Source of the DNA: Lachnospiraceae bacterium
GTDB taxonomy: Bacteria > Bacillota > Clostridia > Lachnospirales > Lachnospiraceae
Direction: 5' to 3'
Assembly: GCA_017634975.1 (NCBI GenBank)
Contig: JAGBMJ010000025.1
Location: forward strand, 62,001-126,000
Length of the DNA stretch: 64,000 nt
The translations under genes were made by a program, and so were the position numbers. The notes beneath the pieces were generated by a model. That model was not told the origin of the DNA. It did no database searches and saw only the letters and a program-made list of their open reading frames with translations. Of the stretch, positions 1 to 35,611 are shown one piece after another (within the stretch, counting starts at the first letter, position 1; every line of letters starts with the position of its first letter).

Positions 1-573
1 GGTGCAGTCCAGCTGATCCAGAGTATCATCCACCAGGAGCACATCCTTTTCGTCCAGGATGAAGCGCTGGGTGTGGTCGTTCATAATGCCGTAGTCCTGC
101 CATTTCTTGGTACCCAGGGTCTCGATCACGATATTGACTTTTTCATTGTAAGGCGCCTTGAGCATCTCGCGGATGTCCTGCGTGGCAAAGCCGTAATCCG
201 TTTCCAGATTGGAGCCGTTCATATAGACCATGACCGTGACGGTATCCTCGCCGTTTCCGCGCGGGGTGACCAGCGGCTGTCTTACCAGACGGTTCTGTAC
301 GGCGGCGATTCGGTCTCCCTGGTCCGCTCCGTCCGGATTTTCCTCGGTACCCTTCTGATTCTCCGTGATATTTGCTTCCGCCAGTCTGCCACGCTCGGTG
401 CTGTGCAGCCTGCCGCGGGAAGAATTCTGCAGCCTGCCGCGTTCAGAAGCCAGCGCCTGTGCCTGCAGGTCGCGGGTCACCAGGACCGAACCGATCACGG
501 TGTAGACCACCAGGATCGATAAGATCACGGAAAAGATGATGATGATGTGTTTTCGTTTCGTTTGATAATCCAT
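1..573 (-). CDS. Clostripain-family (C11) cysteine peptidase, N-terminal part
   Basis: Reading the minus strand from the ATG at 573, the frame stays open to the window edge (191 codons), so the C-terminus is missing. Residues about 9-29 form one membrane segment or uncleaved signal (IIIIFSVILSILVVYTVIG). A low-complexity linker with RGRL three times at an 8-residue period follows. The start of the peptidase domain is TVTVMVYMNGSNLETDYG, which matches the opening strand of C11/clostripain peptidases. The catalytic His and Cys would lie beyond the edge and cannot be checked. The likely product is a membrane-anchored extracytoplasmic peptidase. No clear ribosome site precedes the ATG, so the start is the weakest part of this call. 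Confidence 0.75.
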   Translation of the reverse strand, partial: MDYQTKRKHIIIIFSVILSILVVYTVIGSVLVTRDLQAQALASERGRLQNSSRGRLHSTERGRLAEANITENQKGTEENPDGADQGDRIAAVQNRLVRQPLVTPRGNGEDTVTVMVYMNGSNLETDYGFATQDIREMLKAPYNEKVNIVIETLGTKKWQDYGIMNDHTQRFILDEKDVLLVDDTLDQLDCT

Positions 574-619
574 AATACAGAGTATAGCATTATTGTAATG
601 TTTTGGCTAGTCCGGGCTC

Positions 620-652
620 AGTCACCTCATCCGTCAGCTTCCCCTTGAGGTG
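620..652. repeat. Remnant of dispersed repeat family B
   Basis: Read on the minus strand it gives CCTCAAGGGGAAG followed by CTGACGGATGAGGTG. These are the outer parts of the element seen in fuller form at 10757-10913 and 30443-30496, with the inner GTCAG arm deleted. Confidence 0.6.
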
Positions 653-696
653 GAAATTGAAAAATTGAAAAATCTTTGTGAACAACACCTAAAGAA

Positions 697-725
697 TTGA
701 ACAGCAGACGTTTCTATGTTATAAT
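697..725 (+). promoter_or_regulatory. Sigma-A-type promoter for the 769 operon
   Basis: TTGAAC at 697-702, 17-bp spacer, TATAAT at 720-725. Transcription would start near 732, about 37 bases before the chosen start codon. Confidence 0.7.
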
Positions 726-768
726 ATAGCGGATTGACTGTAAGTAATTTATGGAGGCGGATTTCGAA

Positions 769-2070
769 ATGTACCTGTTATATATCGATCCAGGAACCGG
801 AAGTATGCTGTTCGCGGCGCTGATCGGTATTTTTTCCACATTGCTGTTTTTCTTTCAGAAACTGTGGATCAAGTTTAAGTTTGTATTGAGCGGAGGGCGC
901 ATCAAGGATAAGACCTCGGACGAGAAGCTGCCTTATGTGATCTTCAGCGAAGGCAAGAGCTACTGGAACGTATTTAAGCCCGTATGCGAAGAGTTTGAAA
1001 AGCGCGGGATCGACTGCGAGTACTATACGGCAGATGAGAAGGATCCGGCACTGGAGCAGGGGTATGAGCACGTACACTGCACTTTCATCGGGGACGGCAA
1101 CAAAGCCTTTGCACGGCTGAACATGCTGAATGCGCGGGTGCTGCTGGCGACCACGCCGGGGCTGGAAGTATACCAGTGGAAGCGTTCCCGGAACGTGGGC
1201 AAATACGTGCACATCTTCCATTCGCTGGATGAGGGCACGGCTTATCGTATGTTCGGACTGGACTTTTATGATTCCGTACTGCTGGTCGGAGATTTTCAGG
1301 AACGTTACATCCGCAAGCTCGAGGAGCTCCGCGGTATCCCGCAGAAGGATCTGCAGGTGGTGGGCTGCACCTATATGGACGGTCTGCTGGCACGCAGGGA
1401 CAAAGAGGGCGAAGCAAAACCGGCAGAAAAGCAGAAAACCGTTTTGCTGGCACCGTCATGGGGCGAGATCTCCGTACTGAACCGTTATAAGGAGAAGCTG
1501 ATCGATGCCCTGCTGGCTACCGACTACAAAGTGGTGATCCGCCCGCATCCCCAGTCCTTTAAGGTGGAGATGGATATTCTGCAGCCGCTGATGGACAAGT
1601 ACGGGGATAAGGTAGAGTGGAACCGCGATGCGGATAACTTTGACATCCTGAACCGCTCGGATATCCTGATCAGTGAGTTTTCCAGCGTGGTGTTTGACTT
1701 TGCTTTTGTGTTTGACAAACCGGTGCTGTGTTTTGCCGGAGGACAGTCGGATATGGCGCCGTACGATGCGGCCTGGATCGATGAGGAACCCTGGAAGCAG
1801 CAGGTATTCCCCAAGCTCGGCAAGATGATCACGGAAGAAGATTTCGGCAGTTTCCAGTCCCTGATGGATGAGCTGGTAGAGAGCACCGAGTATCAGAAGA
1901 GCCGTGACGATCTGCGCGAAGCCAGCTGGCAGAACCGCAGGCATTCCGCGGAAGGGATCGTGGATTATCTGGTAGAGACGGCTGCGCGGATGCAGGAAGA
2001 AGAAGATAAGCAGGCGGCAGACGAAAAGGAAGATTCTAATAAAAAAGGAAATAAAGAGGAAACAAGGTAA
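769..2070 (+). CDS. CDP-glycerol glycerophosphotransferase-like protein, membrane anchored
   Basis: The 433-aa protein starts with a membrane segment (MYLLYIDPGTGSMLF and about 20 hydrophobic residues). A two-lobed glycosyltransferase-type domain follows. The C-terminal lobe has IRPHPQS and DILISEFSSVVFDFAF, which correspond to the HP and S/D-SS motifs of the TagB/TagF family that moves glycerol phosphate from CDP-glycerol onto wall polymers. I chose the ATG at 769 because GGAGG lies just upstream inside the alternative start at 751, and because the conserved YIDPGTGSM sequence then opens the protein. It lies 2 bases from the XpaC gene, so they are co-transcribed. A role in wall or surface polymer synthesis is inferred. 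The acceptor is unknown and the protein is shorter than classical TagF. Confidence 0.72.
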   Translation: MYLLYIDPGTGSMLFAALIGIFSTLLFFFQKLWIKFKFVLSGGRIKDKTSDEKLPYVIFSEGKSYWNVFKPVCEEFEKRGIDCEYYTADEKDPALEQGYEHVHCTFIGDGNKAFARLNMLNARVLLATTPGLEVYQWKRSRNVGKYVHIFHSLDEGTAYRMFGLDFYDSVLLVGDFQERYIRKLEELRGIPQKDLQVVGCTYMDGLLARRDKEGEAKPAEKQKTVLLAPSWGEISVLNRYKEKLIDALLATDYKVVIRPHPQSFKVEMDILQPLMDKYGDKVEWNRDADNFDILNRSDILISEFSSVVFDFAFVFDKPVLCFAGGQSDMAPYDAAWIDEEPWKQQVFPKLGKMITEEDFGSFQSLMDELVESTEYQKSRDDLREASWQNRRHSAEGIVDYLVETAARMQEEEDKQAADEKEDSNKKGNKEETR

Positions 2071-25283: not shown

Positions 25284-25311
25284 TTGACTTCAATAGTTGT
25301 TTTTACTAATA
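25284..25311 (+). promoter_or_regulatory. Promoter for the single-copy HD-GYP paralogue
   Basis: TTGACT (25284-25289), 16-bp spacer, TAATAT (25306-25311). The expected transcription start, near 25318, almost coincides with the ATG at 25320. Confidence 0.55.
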
Positions 25312-25319
25312 TAAAATAC

Positions 25320-27269
25320 ATGGATCCGCATTTGAATGAATATGTCAGCAATACCGCGAGGATCCGCGCATTATCGTCTCCGAGTATCCAGGATATCGAC
25401 AATGCGGCGGAATACGGTACCCTGCTGCAGGACAATTTCATAACGATCGGCCAGCTGGCCAGGGAAAACCGGGATATCCTCTCGGAGCATCTTTTTCCGT
25501 TCCTGGAAGAGAGCGCATCCGTTACGAATGCCGATCTGGAGGGACTCGGGCGTTTTGAGGATTCCCTGCTGGATGCACAGACCATGGAAAATCTGGATCC
25601 CGCGATCCACGCGGAGATCTCGGACAGTCTGCTGCACAAGGCAGAGCATGGGGATTCGGTCAAGCTTTTGTTAAAACAGCTGGATCGCGAGATCACGGCC
25701 TGCTATACGATGCAGAATATTACCAGACGTTTAGGCACCTTTCCGCAGATCGCCGCAACCTACCGGGAGCGCGGACTGGAAGCCGGCAGAAAGATCCGGG
25801 ATTATCTGGAGCCGGAAGCCTTTGCCGGGCTTCCCGATAACGAGTGCCGCGAGCTGGTGCTGATCAATGCACGTAATATGTGGCTGCTTTACGAAGGGGA
25901 AACACTTTCGCCGGAGAAAAACCGCGATCTGCTGGTGCAGATGGAAAAGGCGCTTGCACTGGCGGATGCGCCGTATTACCGCAGGCGTATGCCGATGTAC
26001 GACTGGAGTTTTCATGAATTCCGCGCACTGCAGGATATCCTGAAACTGACGGAGTATAACAACGCGCGGGCGTTTCCTGCGGATGCGATCGAAAAGATCT
26101 GCGCATACGGGGAACGTCTGGACCGGCTCTGGCATTCGGCACCGCTGTTTTATAAGGATCTGATGCACGAAAACGAACTGCAGATCCTGCTTGTGCGTGT
26201 CCGCTATCTGAACGGACAGGTTGCGGTGGAGGACTACCGCCGGAATCTGCTGGAGCTTTACAATTCGCGGGACCGGAACGACTATTCCCAGGCGGGGATG
26301 ACGCTCAATCTGATGCTGCCGGCGGAATATATCCTGACACTGGATCCGGAGGCTCTGACTGAGGATGCCAAATACCAGGTCAGCCGCTTCTATCACGATA
26401 CGCTGAATTATGCATTCCATATGTCGGGGCGTGATTCCCTGAGCTTTATGCTGGGATTTCTGTCCCATCTGCTGGATTGTTTTATCGAAGTGCCCGGAGG
26501 GATGACCTTTGGCGAGATGTGTCTGGACTGTCTGGGTGCCCTGCATCCGCCGACCTACGTGCACAGCATCATGGTCGGGCAGATCACGCGCTGCCTTTGC
26601 CGGCATCTGATGCGTCTGCATCCGGAATACTTTGCAAAGGTACCGATGGCGGGGGATACGGAAGCAATCCTCGGATTTGCCTATCAGTCGTCGGTCTGCC
26701 ACGATTTCGGCAAGCTGCTGATCACGGATACGATCATGGTTTACGGGCGCAAGCTTTTGGACAGCGAGTTTTTCCTGCTGCGCACCCATCCGAAGAGCGG
26801 CGCGGATATGATGCTGAAACACGAGTCCACACGGCCGTATGCAAAGATCGCACTGGCACATCACCGATGGTATAACGATTCAGCCGGCTATCCGGATGAT
26901 CTGTGTACGGCGGAACTGCCGGAAAAGGTCTTTATCGATCTGGTCTGCTGTGCGGACTGTCTTGATGCGGCGACGGATACGGTCGGACGCTCCTACAACC
27001 GGGGCAAGACGATGGATGACTTTATCCTGGAGCTCAAGGAAGGCGCCGGGACACGGTACGCCCCATATCTGGCAGAGCTGTTTGATGATGCGGCGCTGCG
27101 GCGCGACCTGCGCTTCCTGCTGCAGCAGGGCAGACGCAGCAGTTATTCCAAGGTGTACCGCCAGTTAAAGGACCTGACGGACCAGAGCGTGCTCTACGGC
27201 GAAAACTATGATTATAATGTGCTGGTGGCTTCGACGGTCGGCGGCACCTTCCGCCAGACGTTCTCATAA
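25320..27269 (+). CDS. HD-GYP-like protein, single-copy paralogue of the tandem protein
   Basis: The 649-aa protein aligns with one repeat of the divergent 1273-aa protein. It shares the N-terminal NTARIRALSSPSIQDIDNAAEY, the HPPTYVHSIMVGQITRCLCRHL stretch, SVCHDFGKL (HD near 459) and AHHRWYNDSAGYPDD (near 515), followed by CADCLDAATDTVGRSYNRG. The HD pair is kept while the GYP motif is altered. I chose the ATG at 25320; a TTG at 25284 overlaps the -35 box. There is no Shine-Dalgarno before 25320, so translation may be leaderless. It probably hydrolyses a cyclic dinucleotide and works with the adjacent paralogue and the receiver protein downstream. Confidence 0.78.
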   Translation: MDPHLNEYVSNTARIRALSSPSIQDIDNAAEYGTLLQDNFITIGQLARENRDILSEHLFPFLEESASVTNADLEGLGRFEDSLLDAQTMENLDPAIHAEISDSLLHKAEHGDSVKLLLKQLDREITACYTMQNITRRLGTFPQIAATYRERGLEAGRKIRDYLEPEAFAGLPDNECRELVLINARNMWLLYEGETLSPEKNRDLLVQMEKALALADAPYYRRRMPMYDWSFHEFRALQDILKLTEYNNARAFPADAIEKICAYGERLDRLWHSAPLFYKDLMHENELQILLVRVRYLNGQVAVEDYRRNLLELYNSRDRNDYSQAGMTLNLMLPAEYILTLDPEALTEDAKYQVSRFYHDTLNYAFHMSGRDSLSFMLGFLSHLLDCFIEVPGGMTFGEMCLDCLGALHPPTYVHSIMVGQITRCLCRHLMRLHPEYFAKVPMAGDTEAILGFAYQSSVCHDFGKLLITDTIMVYGRKLLDSEFFLLRTHPKSGADMMLKHESTRPYAKIALAHHRWYNDSAGYPDDLCTAELPEKVFIDLVCCADCLDAATDTVGRSYNRGKTMDDFILELKEGAGTRYAPYLAELFDDAALRRDLRFLLQQGRRSSYSKVYRQLKDLTDQSVLYGENYDYNVLVASTVGGTFRQTFS

Positions 27270-27270
27270 T

Positions 27271-27327
27271 GAGCCATGGGGACGGTTCTTGTGGCTCATT
27301 TTGAGCCGGAGAACCGTCCCTGTGGCT
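27271..27327. repeat. Dispersed palindromic repeat family A, copy 1
   Basis: GAGCCATGGGGACGGTTCT and its near complement AGCCGGAGAACCGTCCCTGTGGCT flank a short centre. The following T-run lets it double as a terminator for the HD-GYP gene. Confidence 0.85.
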
Positions 27328-27339
27328 TTTTTTTCTTGC

Positions 27340-27526: not shown

Positions 27527-27586
27527 GTATATACATATCAGCACGGTGAAGACCTCTTTGGACTTTTGGAGAAAGGGGGCGGTCTT

Positions 27587-27964
27587 ATGAACATGAGCGG
27601 GCGGAAAAAGAGCATTCTGATCATCGATGACGATCCGGTCTATATGAAGATGGTGCACGAATGGCTCAAGGATGATTTCAAAGTAACGATGACCATCAGC
27701 GGCGGACAGGCGCTGGACTGGCTGAAGGAAAACAAGGCGGATCTGATCCTGCTGGACTATGACCTGCCGGTGATGCCGGGGCCGCAGATCCTCGAAAAGC
27801 TCCGGAGCGGTGCGGACACCAAAGAGACACCGGTGATGATCCTGACGGGGCAGAACGACCGGGAGAGCATCATGCGCATCCTGTCCCTGTGTCCGGCGGA
27901 TTACCTCTTGAAGAATATCGGAAGGGATGAGCTGCGGAACAAAGTGGCGAAATTTCTGAAGTGA
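27587..27964 (+). CDS. Single-domain response regulator (CheY/Spo0F-like)
   Basis: The 125-aa protein is a bare receiver domain. It has the acidic pocket IIDDDPV, phospho-acceptor LLDYDLPVMPG, Thr in MILTGQND and Lys in YLLKNIGRDEL. There is no output domain. AAAGGGGG precedes the ATG at 27587; an upstream TTG at 27566 would place the ribosome site inside the gene. It may relay phosphate to, or tune, the neighbouring HD-GYP or chemoreceptor proteins, but no histidine kinase gene is in the window. Confidence 0.88.
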   Translation: MNMSGRKKSILIIDDDPVYMKMVHEWLKDDFKVTMTISGGQALDWLKENKADLILLDYDLPVMPGPQILEKLRSGADTKETPVMILTGQNDRESIMRILSLCPADYLLKNIGRDELRNKVAKFLK

Positions 27965-27969
27965 CATCG

Positions 27970-28000
27970 ATATCCCCGTCGTGATCGGCGGGGATTTTTT
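27970..28000 (+). terminator. Terminator of the receiver-domain gene
   Basis: ATCCCCG and CGGGGAT pair around about ten bases and are followed by TTTTT, six bases after the stop codon. Confidence 0.8.
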
Positions 28001-28002
28001 GA

Positions 28003-28060
28003 AAGCCACGGGGACGGTTCTTGCGGCTCATTTTGAGCCGGAGAACCGTCCCCGTGGCTC
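28003..28060. repeat. Dispersed palindromic repeat family A, copy 2
   Basis: AGCCACGGGGACGGTTCT ... AGAACCGTCCCCGTGGCT, a nearly perfect long palindrome around GCGGCTCATTTTGAGCCG. Confidence 0.88.
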
Positions 28061-28073
28061 ATATCTCATATCG

Positions 28074-28277: not shown

Positions 28278-28374
28278 AGACAGAGCTTGCGGGCGTGCCA
28301 AACTGCGCCCTCGGGGTACACGATTAGCGACCACAGTGGCCGTTAAATAATATCATTTTATAGGAGGCAATGCA

Positions 28375-30429
28375 ATGAGTGCAGAGTTTAGACCAGAATG
28401 GGAAGGCTTTACCGGCGGTAAGTGGGTAGGCGAAATCAACGTTCGTGATTTCATTCAGAAGAACTACACACCGTATGATGGTGATGATTCTTTCCTCGTA
28501 GGACCGACACAGAACACAAAGGATCTGTGGGCGCAGGTACTGGATCTGTCCCGCCAGGAACGTGAGGCAGGCGGTGTATTGGATATGGATACCAAGGTAG
28601 TATCTACCATCACTTCTCACGGCCCGGGTTACCTGGACAAGAGCAAAGAGACCATCGTAGGTTTCCAGACCGATAAGCCGTTCAAGCGTTCCTTGCAGGT
28701 ATACGGTGGTATCCGTATGGCTGAGAAGGCTTGCGCAGACAATGGTTACACCGTAGATCCGGAGATCAGCGAGTTCTTCTCCGTACACAGAAAGACACAC
28801 AATGCAGGCTGCTTTGATGCTTACACACCGGAGATGCGTGCATGCCGTTCCTCTCACGTAATCACAGGTCTTCCTGATGCTTACGGCCGTGGACGTATCA
28901 TCGGCGACTATCGTCGTGTGGCACTGTACGGTATCGACAGACTGCTCGAGGACAAGCAGGCACAGAAGGATTCTACCGGCCGCGTGATGACCGATGATGT
29001 TATCCGTCTTCGTGAAGAGCTTTCCGAGCAGATGACAGCTCTGAAGATGATGAAGGAAATGGCTGCTTCTTACGGCATCGACATTTCCAAGCCCGCTACA
29101 AACGTACAGGAAGCTATCCAGTTCACATATTTCGGTTATCTGTGCGCAGTTAAGGAGCAGAACGGTGCAGCAATGAGCCTTGGCCGTACTTCTACTTTCA
29201 TCGACTGCTACGCAGAGCGTGACCTGAAGAACGGTAAGTTCACTGAGGAGCAGATCCAGGAATTCGTTGATCACTTCATCATGAAGCTTCGTTGCGTTAA
29301 GTTCGCACGTACACCGGAATACAACCAGATCTTCGCAGGCGATCCTGTATGGGTTACCGAGTCTCTGGGTGGTGTAGGTGTTGACGGACGTCACATGGTT
29401 ACCAAGACCAGCTTCCGTTATCTGAACACCTTAAACAACCTGGGTGCAGCTCCCGAGCCCAACCTGACCGTTCTGTGGTCAACCAGACTGCCCAGACCCT
29501 GGAAAGAGTTCTGCGCTAAGATGTCCATCAAGTCTTCTTCCATCCAGTATGAGAATGATGACCTGATGAGAGTTACCCACGGTGATGATTACGCTATCGC
29601 TTGCTGCGTATCCTCCATGCGTGTTGGTAAGGAAATGCAGTTCTTCGGAGCTCGTGCTAACCTTGCAAAATGTATGCTGTACGCTTTGAACGGCGGTATC
29701 GATGAAGTATCCAAGAAGCAGGTTGGTCCGAAGTATCGTAAGTACGAAGGCGATGTGATCGAGTATGATAAGTTCATGCCGATGTTCGAAGATATGATGG
29801 AGTGGCTGGCAGATGTATATGTAAATACTCTGAACGTAATCCACTACATGCACGACAAGTACTGCTACGAGCGTGCACAGATGGCTCTGCACGACAGAGA
29901 CGTACGCCGCTACTTCGCAACCGGTATGGCTGGTCTGTCCGTAGTTGCAGACTCCCTGTCCGCAATCAAGTACGCTACCGTTAAGCCGATCCGTGATGAG
30001 GACGGTATCATCGTAGATTTCGAGACCACAGGAGACTTCCCGAAGTATGGTAATGATGATGATCGTGTTGACCAGATCGCTCACGACCTTGTTTCCAAGT
30101 TCATGATGATGATCCGTCGTCACCACACCTACAGAAATGGTTTCCCGACCATGTCTGTATTGACCATTACTTCTAACGTAACCTATGGTAAGGCAACCGG
30201 TAACACACCGGATGGCCGTCGTAAGGGACAGCCGTTTGCTCCGGGTGCCAACCCGCTGCACGGCCGTGATACTCACGGTGCAGTAGCTTCCCTGTCTTCC
30301 GTAGCCAAGCTTCCGTTCGAAGACAGCCAGGATGGTATCTCCAATACCTTCACCATCATTCCGGGTGCCCTGGGTAAGGAAGATCAGGTATTTGCAGGCG
30401 ACATCGAAGTAGACCTGAGCAAGAAATAA
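28375..30429 (+). CDS. Pyruvate formate-lyase catalytic core lacking the glycyl radical domain
   Basis: The 684-aa protein follows PflB closely from the first residues to [18 protein letters not shown], then ends in 12 unrelated residues. PFL converts pyruvate and CoA to acetyl-CoA and formate. The two catalytic cysteines are present as Cys410-Cys411 in IACCVSSM, followed by [12 protein letters not shown]. The radical-bearing C-terminal domain (RVSGYAV in E. coli PflB, 760 aa) is absent and is encoded 340 bases downstream at 30770. The stop is followed by repeat hairpins, a ribosome site and another gene, so this is not a simple frameshift. GGAGG stands 8 bases before the ATG. Codons are those of a highly expressed gene (GCT, GTT, CGT). 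The core should be inactive unless the separate radical subunit docks. Confidence 0.93.
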
Positions 30430-30442
30430 GTAAAAACACAAA

Positions 30443-30496
30443 CCTTGCCTCCCCCCTTTTGGGGGAAGGTGTCAGGCAAAGCCTGACGGATGAGGG
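30443..30496. repeat. Repeat family B copy between pfl core and small subunit genes
   Basis: CCCCC-CTTTT-GGGGG hairpin, then GTCAGGC-AAA-GCCTGAC (30471-30487), then GGATGAGG. It lies in the 85-base gap of the operon and could act as a partial terminator or a 3' stabiliser of the core message. Confidence 0.75.
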
Positions 30497-30514
30497 AAAA
30501 GGGAGGAAAGCGAT

Positions 30515-30733
30515 ATGGCAGATCAGAATATGACGGAAGAGCAGATGATCCAGGATCTGGTAGCGCAGTTGGACGGTGGTTTTGCCAACGGTGTAGGTCA
30601 TGTAAATGTAGACGTGGACGAAAATGCTTCTGCAAAGAAGGAAGTAGAGACCATGGGCTGCACGGATTGCTCCCGCACGCCGCTCGCATGCTCCGTACCG
30701 ACCCTGCATCAGGGATTGGACGATTACGAATAA
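30515..30733 (+). CDS. Small protein resembling the first half of a glycyl radical domain, with Cys-rich tail
   Basis: The 72-aa protein has a good ribosome site (GGGAGGAAAG). Residues 14-37 (DLVAQLDGGFANGVGHVNVDVDEN) line up with the segment of the 81-aa radical subunit that reads [21 protein letters not shown], and so with the start of the PFL radical domain. From residue 48 it departs: there is no RVSGYAV. Instead a tail has Cys49, Cys52 and Cys59 (GCTDCSRTPLACSVP) and ends LHQGLDDYE. Three close cysteines could bind iron-sulphur or zinc, or be redox-active. I do not recognise a described family. Its position between the core and radical genes suggests an adaptor, inhibitor or radical-protecting subunit (inference). 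Confidence 0.8.
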   Translation: MADQNMTEEQMIQDLVAQLDGGFANGVGHVNVDVDENASAKKEVETMGCTDCSRTPLACSVPTLHQGLDDYE

Positions 30734-30769
30734 TTATTAGGAATCGAATCTGATAGGAGGAAAATAACA

Positions 30770-31015
30770 ATGGCAGAAGCTAGTACAGCACAGATCAACA
30801 ATCTGGTATCTTTATTGGATGGATATGCAACCAAGGGCGGTCATCATCTGAACGTTAACGTTCTGAACAGAGAGACCCTGCTGGATGCTCAGGCTCATCC
30901 GGAGAACTATCCGCAGCTGACCATCCGTGTATCCGGTTATGCAGTTAACTTCATCAAGTTGACTCCGGAGCAGCAGGCAGACGTTATCAGCCGTACATTC
31001 CACGAGAAGATCTGA
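30770..31015 (+). CDS. Stand-alone glycyl radical subunit of pyruvate formate-lyase
   Basis: The 81-aa protein equals the C-terminal domain of PFL. It has [37 protein letters not shown] and [14 protein letters not shown], ending at the normal PFL C-terminus. Gly56 in RVSGYAV corresponds to the radical Gly734 of E. coli PflB. GATAGGAGG precedes the ATG. It resembles the spare part YfiD/GrcA of E. coli and its T4 phage counterpart, but those repair a full-length PFL, while the core here has no radical domain of its own. It therefore should be an obligatory subunit, activated by PflA (gene at 32779). Codons match a highly expressed gene. Confidence 0.93.
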
Positions 31016-32668: not shown

Positions 32669-32715
32669 AGGCAAGAGGTAGTACCGCTGCATAGAAATTA
32701 TTGCAGATAAGTCAA

Positions 32716-32744
32716 TTGAAGTGTTTCAGGAGATGTAGTAAAAT
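32716..32744 (+). promoter_or_regulatory. Promoter of pflA
   Basis: TTGAAG (32716-32721), 17-bp spacer, TAAAAT (32739-32744). This makes the activase a separate transcription unit from the pfl operon. Confidence 0.65.
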
Positions 32745-32778
32745 ACAAATATCCAAGAAAAAACCGGGAGGGTGCGAT

Positions 32779-33537
32779 ATGAAAGGACGAATTCATTCGA
32801 CAGAGAGTTTCGGAACAGTAGACGGACCGGGTGTCCGTTTTGTAGTATTTTTGCAGGGGTGCCCAATGCGCTGCGCGTATTGCCATAATCCGGATACCTG
32901 GGATCCGAAAGGCGGAACACCGACGGAGGCATCCGAGATCATCGAGCAGTATATCCGTAATGAGAGCTTTTATCAGGGCGGCGGTATCACCGTAACCGGT
33001 GGAGAACCGCTGATGCAGATCGATTTTCTGCTGGAACTGTTTACACTGGCAAAGCAGCACAACATCCATACCTGTATCGATTCCTCCGGTATTATGTATC
33101 ACCCGGGTGAGAGCGAGTACAATAAGAAGCTGGATGAGCTGATGAAGATCACGGATCTGGTGATGCTGGATATCAAGCACATTGATCCGGAGAAGCATAA
33201 ATGGCTGACGCAGCAGCCGAATGACGGGATCCTGGCATTTGCGAAATATCTGGATGAAAAGCATGTGGACGTGTGGATCCGTCACGTAGTGGTGCCGGGG
33301 ATCACGGACGACGATGAGTACCTGTATAAGCTGGGCTATTTCATTGGCGGTCTGAGCAATCTGAAGGCACTGGATGTGCTGCCGTATCATACGATGGGAC
33401 TGCCGAAGTATGAGAAACTGGGTATCGAATACCGCTTAAAGGGTGTGCCGGCCATGGACAAGGAAGTGGTGCTGGAGAAGAAAAAAGTGATCCTGGACGG
33501 TATACGAAAACGCCGCGAGGAGTTACAAGGGAATTAG
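32779..33537 (+). CDS. pflA: Pyruvate formate-lyase activating enzyme (radical SAM)
   Basis: The 252-aa protein is full length for PflA. The radical-SAM cluster motif is Cys28, Cys32, Cys35 (GCPMRCAYC), one residue off the E. coli numbering. The SAM-binding GGEP (VTGGEPLMQ) and the C-terminal DVLPYHTMGLPKYEKLG, which helps bind the glycyl domain, are present. It cleaves SAM and abstracts hydrogen from the radical glycine. Here the substrate would be the 81-aa subunit rather than one long PFL chain. GGGAGGG lies 7 bases before the ATG at 32779; an in-frame start at 32701 is upstream of the promoter. A ferredoxin gene follows. Confidence 0.95.
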   Translation: MKGRIHSTESFGTVDGPGVRFVVFLQGCPMRCAYCHNPDTWDPKGGTPTEASEIIEQYIRNESFYQGGGITVTGGEPLMQIDFLLELFTLAKQHNIHTCIDSSGIMYHPGESEYNKKLDELMKITDLVMLDIKHIDPEKHKWLTQQPNDGILAFAKYLDEKHVDVWIRHVVVPGITDDDEYLYKLGYFIGGLSNLKALDVLPYHTMGLPKYEKLGIEYRLKGVPAMDKEVVLEKKKVILDGIRKRREELQGN

Positions 33538-34787: not shown

Positions 34788-35345
34788 ATGACTTATGAAG
34801 AGATCGTCGGCTATGTAAAGAAGAAGGCTGCGAAGGCAGATGCAAAGAATTTCGGTTCTGTTGCAGTCCAGATTGATATTACGGGCGAGGGCGAAGGCGC
34901 TTTCTATGTAGCAGTTGCAGATGGAAAGGTCGATGTTCAGCCGTATGAGTATTTTGATCACAATGCAAAGGTGATCGCAGACGGAAATGATTTCATTGCA
35001 TTTCTGGATGGCAAGAAGGGTGCAGAGGTTCTGACCGTTGCCGGAGATGAGAATGCTGTAGCGATCGTAAAGAGCTTCGCTGCTGCAGAAAAGGCACCGG
35101 TAAAGAAGGCTGAAAAGCCTGCTGCAGAGAAGAAAGCACCGGCAAAGAAAGCGGAGCCGAAGAAGGCAGCAGCAAAGCCGGCAGAGAAGAAGGAAGAAGT
35201 AAAGAAAGTTGAGCCTGTAAAGGCAGAAGTGAAGAAAGCAGAAGCAAAGCCTGCTGCAGAGAAGAAAGCACCGGCAAAGAAGGCAGAGCCGAAGAAAGCC
35301 GTTGCAAAGCCGGCAGCTAAGAAAACTCCTGCAAAGAAGAAATAA
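34788..35345 (+). CDS. SCP2-like domain protein with histone-H1-like Lys/Ala/Pro tail
   Basis: Residues 1-102 form a compact domain resembling SCP2 sterol-carrier-like folds (VAVQIDITGEGEGAFYVAVADGKVDVQPY; DGNDFIAFLDGKKGAE). Residues 103-185 are almost only Lys, Ala, Pro, Glu and Val in AAEKKAPAKKAEPKKA-type repeats, ending PAKKTPAKKK. Such tails bind DNA or other polyanions and are disordered. It has a consensus promoter, a strong ribosome site and its own terminator, so it should be abundant. A nucleoid or lipid link is possible; no function is proven for this pairing. Confidence 0.7.
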   Translation: MTYEEIVGYVKKKAAKADAKNFGSVAVQIDITGEGEGAFYVAVADGKVDVQPYEYFDHNAKVIADGNDFIAFLDGKKGAEVLTVAGDENAVAIVKSFAAAEKAPVKKAEKPAAEKKAPAKKAEPKKAAAKPAEKKEEVKKVEPVKAEVKKAEAKPAAEKKAPAKKAEPKKAVAKPAAKKTPAKKK

Positions 35346-35420: not shown

Positions 35421-35441
35421 ACATTATAAGTCTATAGTAAT

Positions 35442-35500
35442 GAGCCATGGGGACGGTTCTTGTGGCCCATTTTAAGCCGGAGAACCGTCCCTGTGGTTCA
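35442..35500. repeat. Dispersed palindromic repeat family A, copy 3
   Basis: GAGCCATGGGGACGGTTCT ... AGCCGGAGAACCGTCCC, diverged at the ends. From here to 35611 I see no gene or other feature. Confidence 0.8.
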
Positions 35501-35611
35501 TTTTGTGCGGCGATGAGAGTCGACCCAAAAAAAAGAGTGCCAGCCGGAACGGTTATCAGGGACAACTCGTCTTTGCTGACACTATTTTACATTCTATCAG
35601 GAAAACTGCGC

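Follow-up and report, generated by a model that had tools for sequence, protein, structure and literature searches.

In this work, we ask how a pyruvate formate-lyase (PFL) can function when its core protein ends before the glycyl radical domain and the radical glycine is encoded by another gene. PFL is the classic example of an enzyme damaged by oxygen, which cleaves its chain at the radical glycine, so that the protein must be repaired or is lost. Such a core was found in the window, that is, the whole stretch of 64,000 nucleotides of Lachnospiraceae bacterium DNA that was analysed. Judged from the sequences and their comparison across genomes, these genes probably encode a permanently split PFL (a probability of about 0.8), consisting of a core and a docking GrcA3 subunit, with a cysteine element as a dedicated accessory.

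The core gene (28,375..30,429, forward strand) encodes 684 aa with the catalytic barrel and the Cys410-Cys411 pair, and it is preceded by an AGGAGG ribosome binding site at 28,362..28,367 on the same strand. Its product matches the PflB model TIGR01255 over positions 1-665 of 744 with 1087.5 bits and the PFL-like domain with 710.8 bits. The identity to E. coli PFL is 67.6% over 429 aligned residues, and residue mapping places Cys410/Cys411 on E. coli C418/C419. A272, Y323, W333, F432, R435, and H514 of the E. coli enzyme, which belong to its active site, are all retained. Core residue 673 is aligned to E. coli residue 681, and extrapolation from there puts the end of the core near E. coli 692; the glycyl radical domain is absent and RVSGY has no occurrence in the core. 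The missing part is encoded by grcA3 (30,770..31,015, forward strand), which also has an upstream AGGAGG. Its 81-aa product carries RVSGYAV with Gly56 and covers TIGR01255 positions 663-744. Residues 9-79 are aligned to E. coli PFL 682-757, and this pairing puts Gly56 opposite Gly734. The protein scored 83.8 bits against Gly_radical and 159.2 bits against NF038360, 'autonomous glycyl radical cofactor GrcA3', which is over the cut-off of 158. The preliminary description had drawn the core with its cysteine pair and without RVSGY, and the missing domain as a downstream gene with its own AGGAGG, and both hold. It had also proposed a split into two genes; the core and the radical chain are indeed intact and conserved, but a conserved third gene between them had been overlooked. 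This gene, here called mid (30,515..30,733, forward strand), encodes 72 aa with a D-C-x5-A-C-S-V-P-T tail and without RVSGY. A purine-rich ribosome site stands at each of the three genes. A PflA-type radical SAM activase (32,701..33,537, forward strand; TIGR02493, 299.2 bits, cut-off 231.75) follows in the same direction, separated from grcA3 by an ORF of 539 aa without a Pfam match, and an activase motif was found at most 4.5 kb downstream in 26 of the 30 split cores for which 4 kb or more of sequence was available. Relative to 11 relatives, the dN/dS of the window genes was 0.04-0.08 for the core and 0.04-0.17 for grcA3, while the range of 0-0.17 for mid comes from six of the 11 because dS was saturated in the other five. 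Purifying selection on the core is strong.

Several other features of the window were observed around these genes. The gap between core and mid contains two stem-loops (30,448..30,487, forward strand) in the RNA fold of 30,420-30,530, whose energy of -32.2 kcal/mol (z -2.25) was equalled by 2 of 200 shuffles; they are possibly a stoichiometry or processing element. A 67-base imperfect palindrome (GGGGACGGTTCT...GAGCCGGAGAACCGTCCC) occurs three times, at 27,267-27,333, 27,999-28,065, and 35,438-35,504, and resembles a dispersed element of the REP type. At 35,114-35,323 there are purine-rich direct repeats of 78 bases that overlap one another (AAAGCCTGCTGCAGAGAAG...) and are perhaps coding. Just upstream of the PFL genes, an HD-domain protein of 661 aa (25,284-27,269) and a stand-alone receiver domain (27,566-27,964) are encoded, possibly a signalling pair.

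The genome itself was searched for a full-length PFL, as the preliminary description had proposed. PF02901 gave three matches, namely the window core, an identical copy on contig C102, and a distant 673-aa enzyme on contig C93, and PF01228 added a lone GrcA3 on C89 and a protein on C65 that is NrdD-like by eye. No full-length PFL1 was found in the PF02901 and TIGR01255 searches of this assembly, which is 99.13% complete. The C102 copy is 100% identical to the window locus over 8,997 bases and is probably an assembly or strain duplicate, the contamination of the genome being 7.46%. The C93 enzyme (L014, 4,045-6,066) is PFL-like with RVWGF and an adjacent activase-like ORF, and its neighbours are, by eye, glycosyltransferase-like and flippase-like ORFs.

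The search for further genomes with a core of about 680 aa and a radical gene of about 80 codons was extended to three non-overlapping sets: the same genus (35 genomes including this one), the order (295), and the class (391). In the genus, mid is present in 25 of the 35 genomes, all with a core ending at positions 665-667 of TIGR01255's 744; in G014 and G033 the match continues through the stop to 709-710. TIGR01255 found no full-length PFL1 in these 25 split genomes. Of the remaining ten genomes, a full-length PFL is present in five (G002, G004, G015, G020, G027), four gave no match (G003, G009, G026, G034), and G001 has fragments only and was left uncounted. The 295 genomes of the order were compared with NF038360, by which weak free-standing copies were possibly missed, and 55 were taken to TIGR01255. 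Three proved not to be split and were set aside (G277 and G161 with a full-length PFL, G220 with a full-length PFL and fragments), and among the matches listed there were 52 genomes with a free-standing GrcA3 and a split core. The core gene is contiguous in 50 of them and in pieces in G108 and G177; none of the 52 has a full-length PFL1. For the class, only NF038360 matches at E<=1e-42 were used, which gave 25 genomes, 8 of this order and 17 elsewhere. Outside the order, 16 of these 17 high-scoring genomes are split and G642 has a full-length PFL; a full-length PFL stands beside the split one in G574 and G673, so 14 of the 16 are without it. The total is 93 split genomes (25 + 52 + 16), 91 without full-length PFL1, although many of them are metagenome-assembled, and in single cases a missing full-length gene may reflect incompleteness. 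The split spans families f1, f8, f11, and f22 of the order and f35, f39, f42, f43, f74, f77, and f91 outside it. Furthermore, when named genomes were scanned with the mid alignment, 417 encoding stretches were obtained; of these, 80 loci were kept, nearly all titled Lachnospiraceae, and two isolates, Bacterium D16-50 and Lachnospiraceae YSD2013, are among them. In G673 and G574 (loci L328 and L329), where the split cores are without the cysteine element, the core, grcA3, and activase ORFs overlap, which suggests translational coupling.

The same break in so many independent genomes is not an assembly artefact. A single chain, with the break either due to an error of sequencing or assembly or bridged by programmed readthrough or frameshifting, is hardly credible: core, cysteine motif, and grcA3 do share one frame at 14 of 82 distinct loci (a motif count that includes one fused-tail locus), but the frames differ at the other 68, the gene order core-grcA3-mid occurs, and in a comparison of 12 loci every gene had a start of its own, in most cases together with a purine-rich site. 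A core-mid-grcA3 fusion, which 'open frame' lengths of 867-884 aa had appeared to indicate, was rejected because the ORFs are separate. The other conservative explanation makes GrcA3 an ordinary spare for another, working full-length PFL, with the core as a decayed remnant. NCBIfam names GrcA3 as a YfiD-type cofactor, and a second lone GrcA3 lies beside a Crp-type regulator, both of which would suit a spare; the lack of full-length PFL1 in nearly all split genomes and the purifying selection on the core nevertheless make this very improbable, and for the window's own genome, as assembled, it is contradicted. Thus, the small chain is best read as an obligate subunit rather than a spare, since 91 of the 93 split genomes are without full-length PFL1, and the earlier proposal that a core without a radical glycine would need it gains support from comparative genomics.

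Like the known GrcA/YfiD and T4 Y06I (TIGR04365), GrcA3 is a free glycyl radical protein of small size that shares homology with the C-terminus of PFL. Those proteins repair an oxygen-cut full-length PFL, whereas here full-length PFL1 was not found. The homology of GrcA3 to the radical domain begins at residue 4-9, and a long disordered N-terminal half is absent; YfiD has a disordered N-terminus of 60 residues (PMC8683613). The 81-aa protein is a member of NF038360, a family whose name implies a spare, while its genomic setting implies an obligate subunit. A further GrcA3 is located on another contig in 17 of the 25 split genomes of the genus. A Crp-like gene adjoins six of eight such second-GrcA3 places in the genus, and a rubrerythrin-like gene lies near two of six in other genera (one of each Pfam-checked). 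In this genome, the lone GrcA3 on C89 (L013, 5,192-5,434) comes after a Crp-type regulator, and related genomes are similar. The second GrcA3 would agree with an inducible source of new radical subunits. An oxygen-cleaved radical subunit may be cheaply replaced, and the second copy in 17 of 25 genomes makes this more plausible.

The mid protein has no family match in Pfam, NCBIfam, or PHROGs. Its residues 8-38 match GrcA3 residues 5-35 (hhalign E 9.8e-7, probability 91%), and no RVxGY radical motif (the PF01228 feature) is present; by this match, mid looks like a radical domain in which the first helix and the strand survive but the glycine loop is gone. Among 117 distinct mids (ORFs below 150 aa in the fetched loci), G28, C52, A58, C59, and P62 are invariant in all 117. 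The tail is mostly D-C-x(4,5)-A-C-[S/N]-V-P-T, and C49 is missing in some other families. The cysteine element occurs either in mid or on the core itself. By genome, 69 of the 93 have mid (25 genus, 41 order, and 3 class genomes; some of these 69 cores were read short of their end), 19 have a core cysteine tail (10 order and 9 class), and five have neither (G223, G478, G514, G574, G673). By sequence, 122 distinct core tails in the fetched loci divide into 99 with mid (including two loci whose mids a length filter had first hidden), 18 with at least two cysteines and without mid, and five with neither. When mid is present, none of the 99 distinct core tails has a cysteine. Examples of core cysteine tails are ...DLDCSNGACSTPTLFEGLDNQ (G621), ...DLDCDNGACSSPTLFEGLDTDEK (G407), and ...EECGNQACNIPNIMESIDNE (G261).

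A profile built only from the mid tail scored 14.5-35 bits on eight of 15 tested core tails, against a true null maximum of 3.9, so these eight are homologous to the mid tail. Of the other seven, six were at background (including the visible part of PDB entry 38lb) and one was not listed. In the control, 813 of 1249 ORF tails were scored and four exceeded the core tails; these four could not be taken as false matches, since they are real mids in ORFs longer than 150 aa (two loci, each fetched twice). DCACCEP, DCLCCEP, GCCE, and similar tails have only cysteines in common with the mid tail. In G475, the gene order is core-grcA3-mid, so mid has been kept despite the changed order. In a 64-row core tree, 38lb and the full-length G277 and G161 fall together with the split cores in a single group (95/86), which is distinct from the full-length PFLs of the window's own genus and does not include 38la. 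Because the mid, cysteine-tail, and full-length states are interleaved in this group, the cysteine element has probably been relocated several times. The alternation between tail and separate gene is the best evidence that mid works with the split PFL. The five split systems with neither mid nor a two-cysteine tail mean that the element is not universally needed. The split core of G514 (locus L330) stops right after SLGKDD, resembling the SLGKED end of 38la, and such a core is possibly a third, tail-less type.

Two other explanations accept the split as real and differ in what the cysteine element does. It is possible, if doubtful, that the cysteine tail is a redox device, either a thiol pair next to the radical site that quenches the glycyl radical before oxygen cleavage or a disulfide or metal switch. 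The two invariant cysteines of the distinct mids would agree with this, as would the cysteine richness of the unrelated-looking tails elsewhere; however, the spacing varies from C-x4-C to C-x6-C, C-x-CC, and CC, the window mid belongs to no Pfam or NCBIfam family, and five split systems are without the element. We regard as unlikely that mid is a cap, which would occupy the vacant radical-domain groove of GrcA3-free cores, shield the cysteine pair and barrel, and be displaced by GrcA3 as a competitor. Mid resembles the first half of GrcA3 without the radical glycine, the channel of the radical loop might be occupied by its tail, and cleaved E. coli PFL that is not repaired is prone to proteolysis (PMC8683613). 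The core-fused tails, however, come without the competing helix and strand half, which means that this half cannot be a general means of competition.

For the preferred reading, a permanently split PFL, we hypothesize the following course. The 684-aa core would hold the sites for substrate and CoA as well as the catalytic pair of cysteines, and GrcA3 would dock where the C-terminal domain is missing. PflA would install the glycyl radical on GrcA3, from which it would be passed to Cys411. The cysteine-bearing tail, on the core C-terminus or on the separate mid, would be a dedicated accessory. Mid would provide in trans a relative of the segment around E. coli 678-713, and its two invariant cysteines would be at work in the vacant radical site or close to it. 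In E. coli, YfiD binding and activation require PFL residues 696-733, a core cut at 695 had no detectable YfiD binding, and tPFL with YfiD, once activated, matched wild-type activity (PMC8683613). Since the segment supplied by mid would overlap this required region, mid is most likely a docking or activation element for GrcA3. Given the wild-type activity of tPFL with YfiD, turnover as such does not depend on a mid-like piece. The role of the cysteine element may lie in docking and activation or in thiol protection. A tethered core-mid-GrcA3 read-through chain (L064, 61-row alignment) was modelled with a pTM of 0.73 and aligned to E. coli PFL over 718 residues (model 1..869 to chain 1..753, reaching into GrcA3), a fit helped by four full-length PFL rows in the alignment. 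Mid and its cysteines were mostly below pLDDT 50 in this model, mid alone was modelled at a mean pLDDT of 54, and neither model enters into the mechanism proposed above. With a profile built from the mids, nothing similar to mid was found among the chains of the PDB copy.

PFL, GrcA, and the activase are already known kinds of protein, and GrcA3 is already named in NCBIfam. PflB (TIGR01255; E. coli 1h16/2pfl) has the barrel, the Cys-Cys pair, the active-site residues, and a nearby activase in common with the present system; its radical domain is in the same chain, whereas here it is in another gene and a cysteine element is added. Two PDB chains labelled 'Formate acetyltransferase' resemble split cores. 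The end of 38lb_A is like that of a split core with a cysteine tail (FGECDMCEMKELD..., with ~36 further residues beyond the part seen), and 38la_A ends at SLGKED; someone has thus probably worked on split cores. Both were absent from the GrcA3 search of the PDB at E<=0.01 and from the matches listed in the fold search (library to 2026-04-08). Among the matches listed in the open-licence PMC literature, neither a split PFL, nor an obligate place for GrcA3 as a subunit, nor mid and the cysteine element was described; the name 'GrcA3' was not found there, and 38LA/38LB gave nothing relevant. Another glycyl radical enzyme, benzylsuccinate synthase, has a large subunit that retains its own glycine. 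Its beta and gamma accessory subunits hold a [4Fe-4S] cluster in a HiPIP-like fold and are likewise small extra chains that tune radical chemistry (PMC12590467). For mid, neither Pfam nor NCBIfam gave a match to such [4Fe-4S] subunits, and its model has low confidence.

More tentatively, we suggest that a whole branch of Clostridia may have PFL, its central fermentative enzyme, in three parts: a lasting core, a disposable radical subunit, and a cysteine element that has moved between the core tail and a separate, degenerate radical-domain protein and would govern docking, activation, or safe radical shutdown in air. In these gut and rumen bacteria, the vulnerable part of the enzyme would be a small exchangeable subunit from the outset, so that what is known as 'spare part' repair would become the normal architecture. 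It also suggests that GrcA3 should be re-annotated as a PFL subunit and the 'truncated' PFLs of ~680 aa as functional, and it adds an unrecognised conserved cysteine protein, mid. Moreover, the locus would allow the installation of the radical, docking, and oxygen damage to be studied on separate chains in a natural system.
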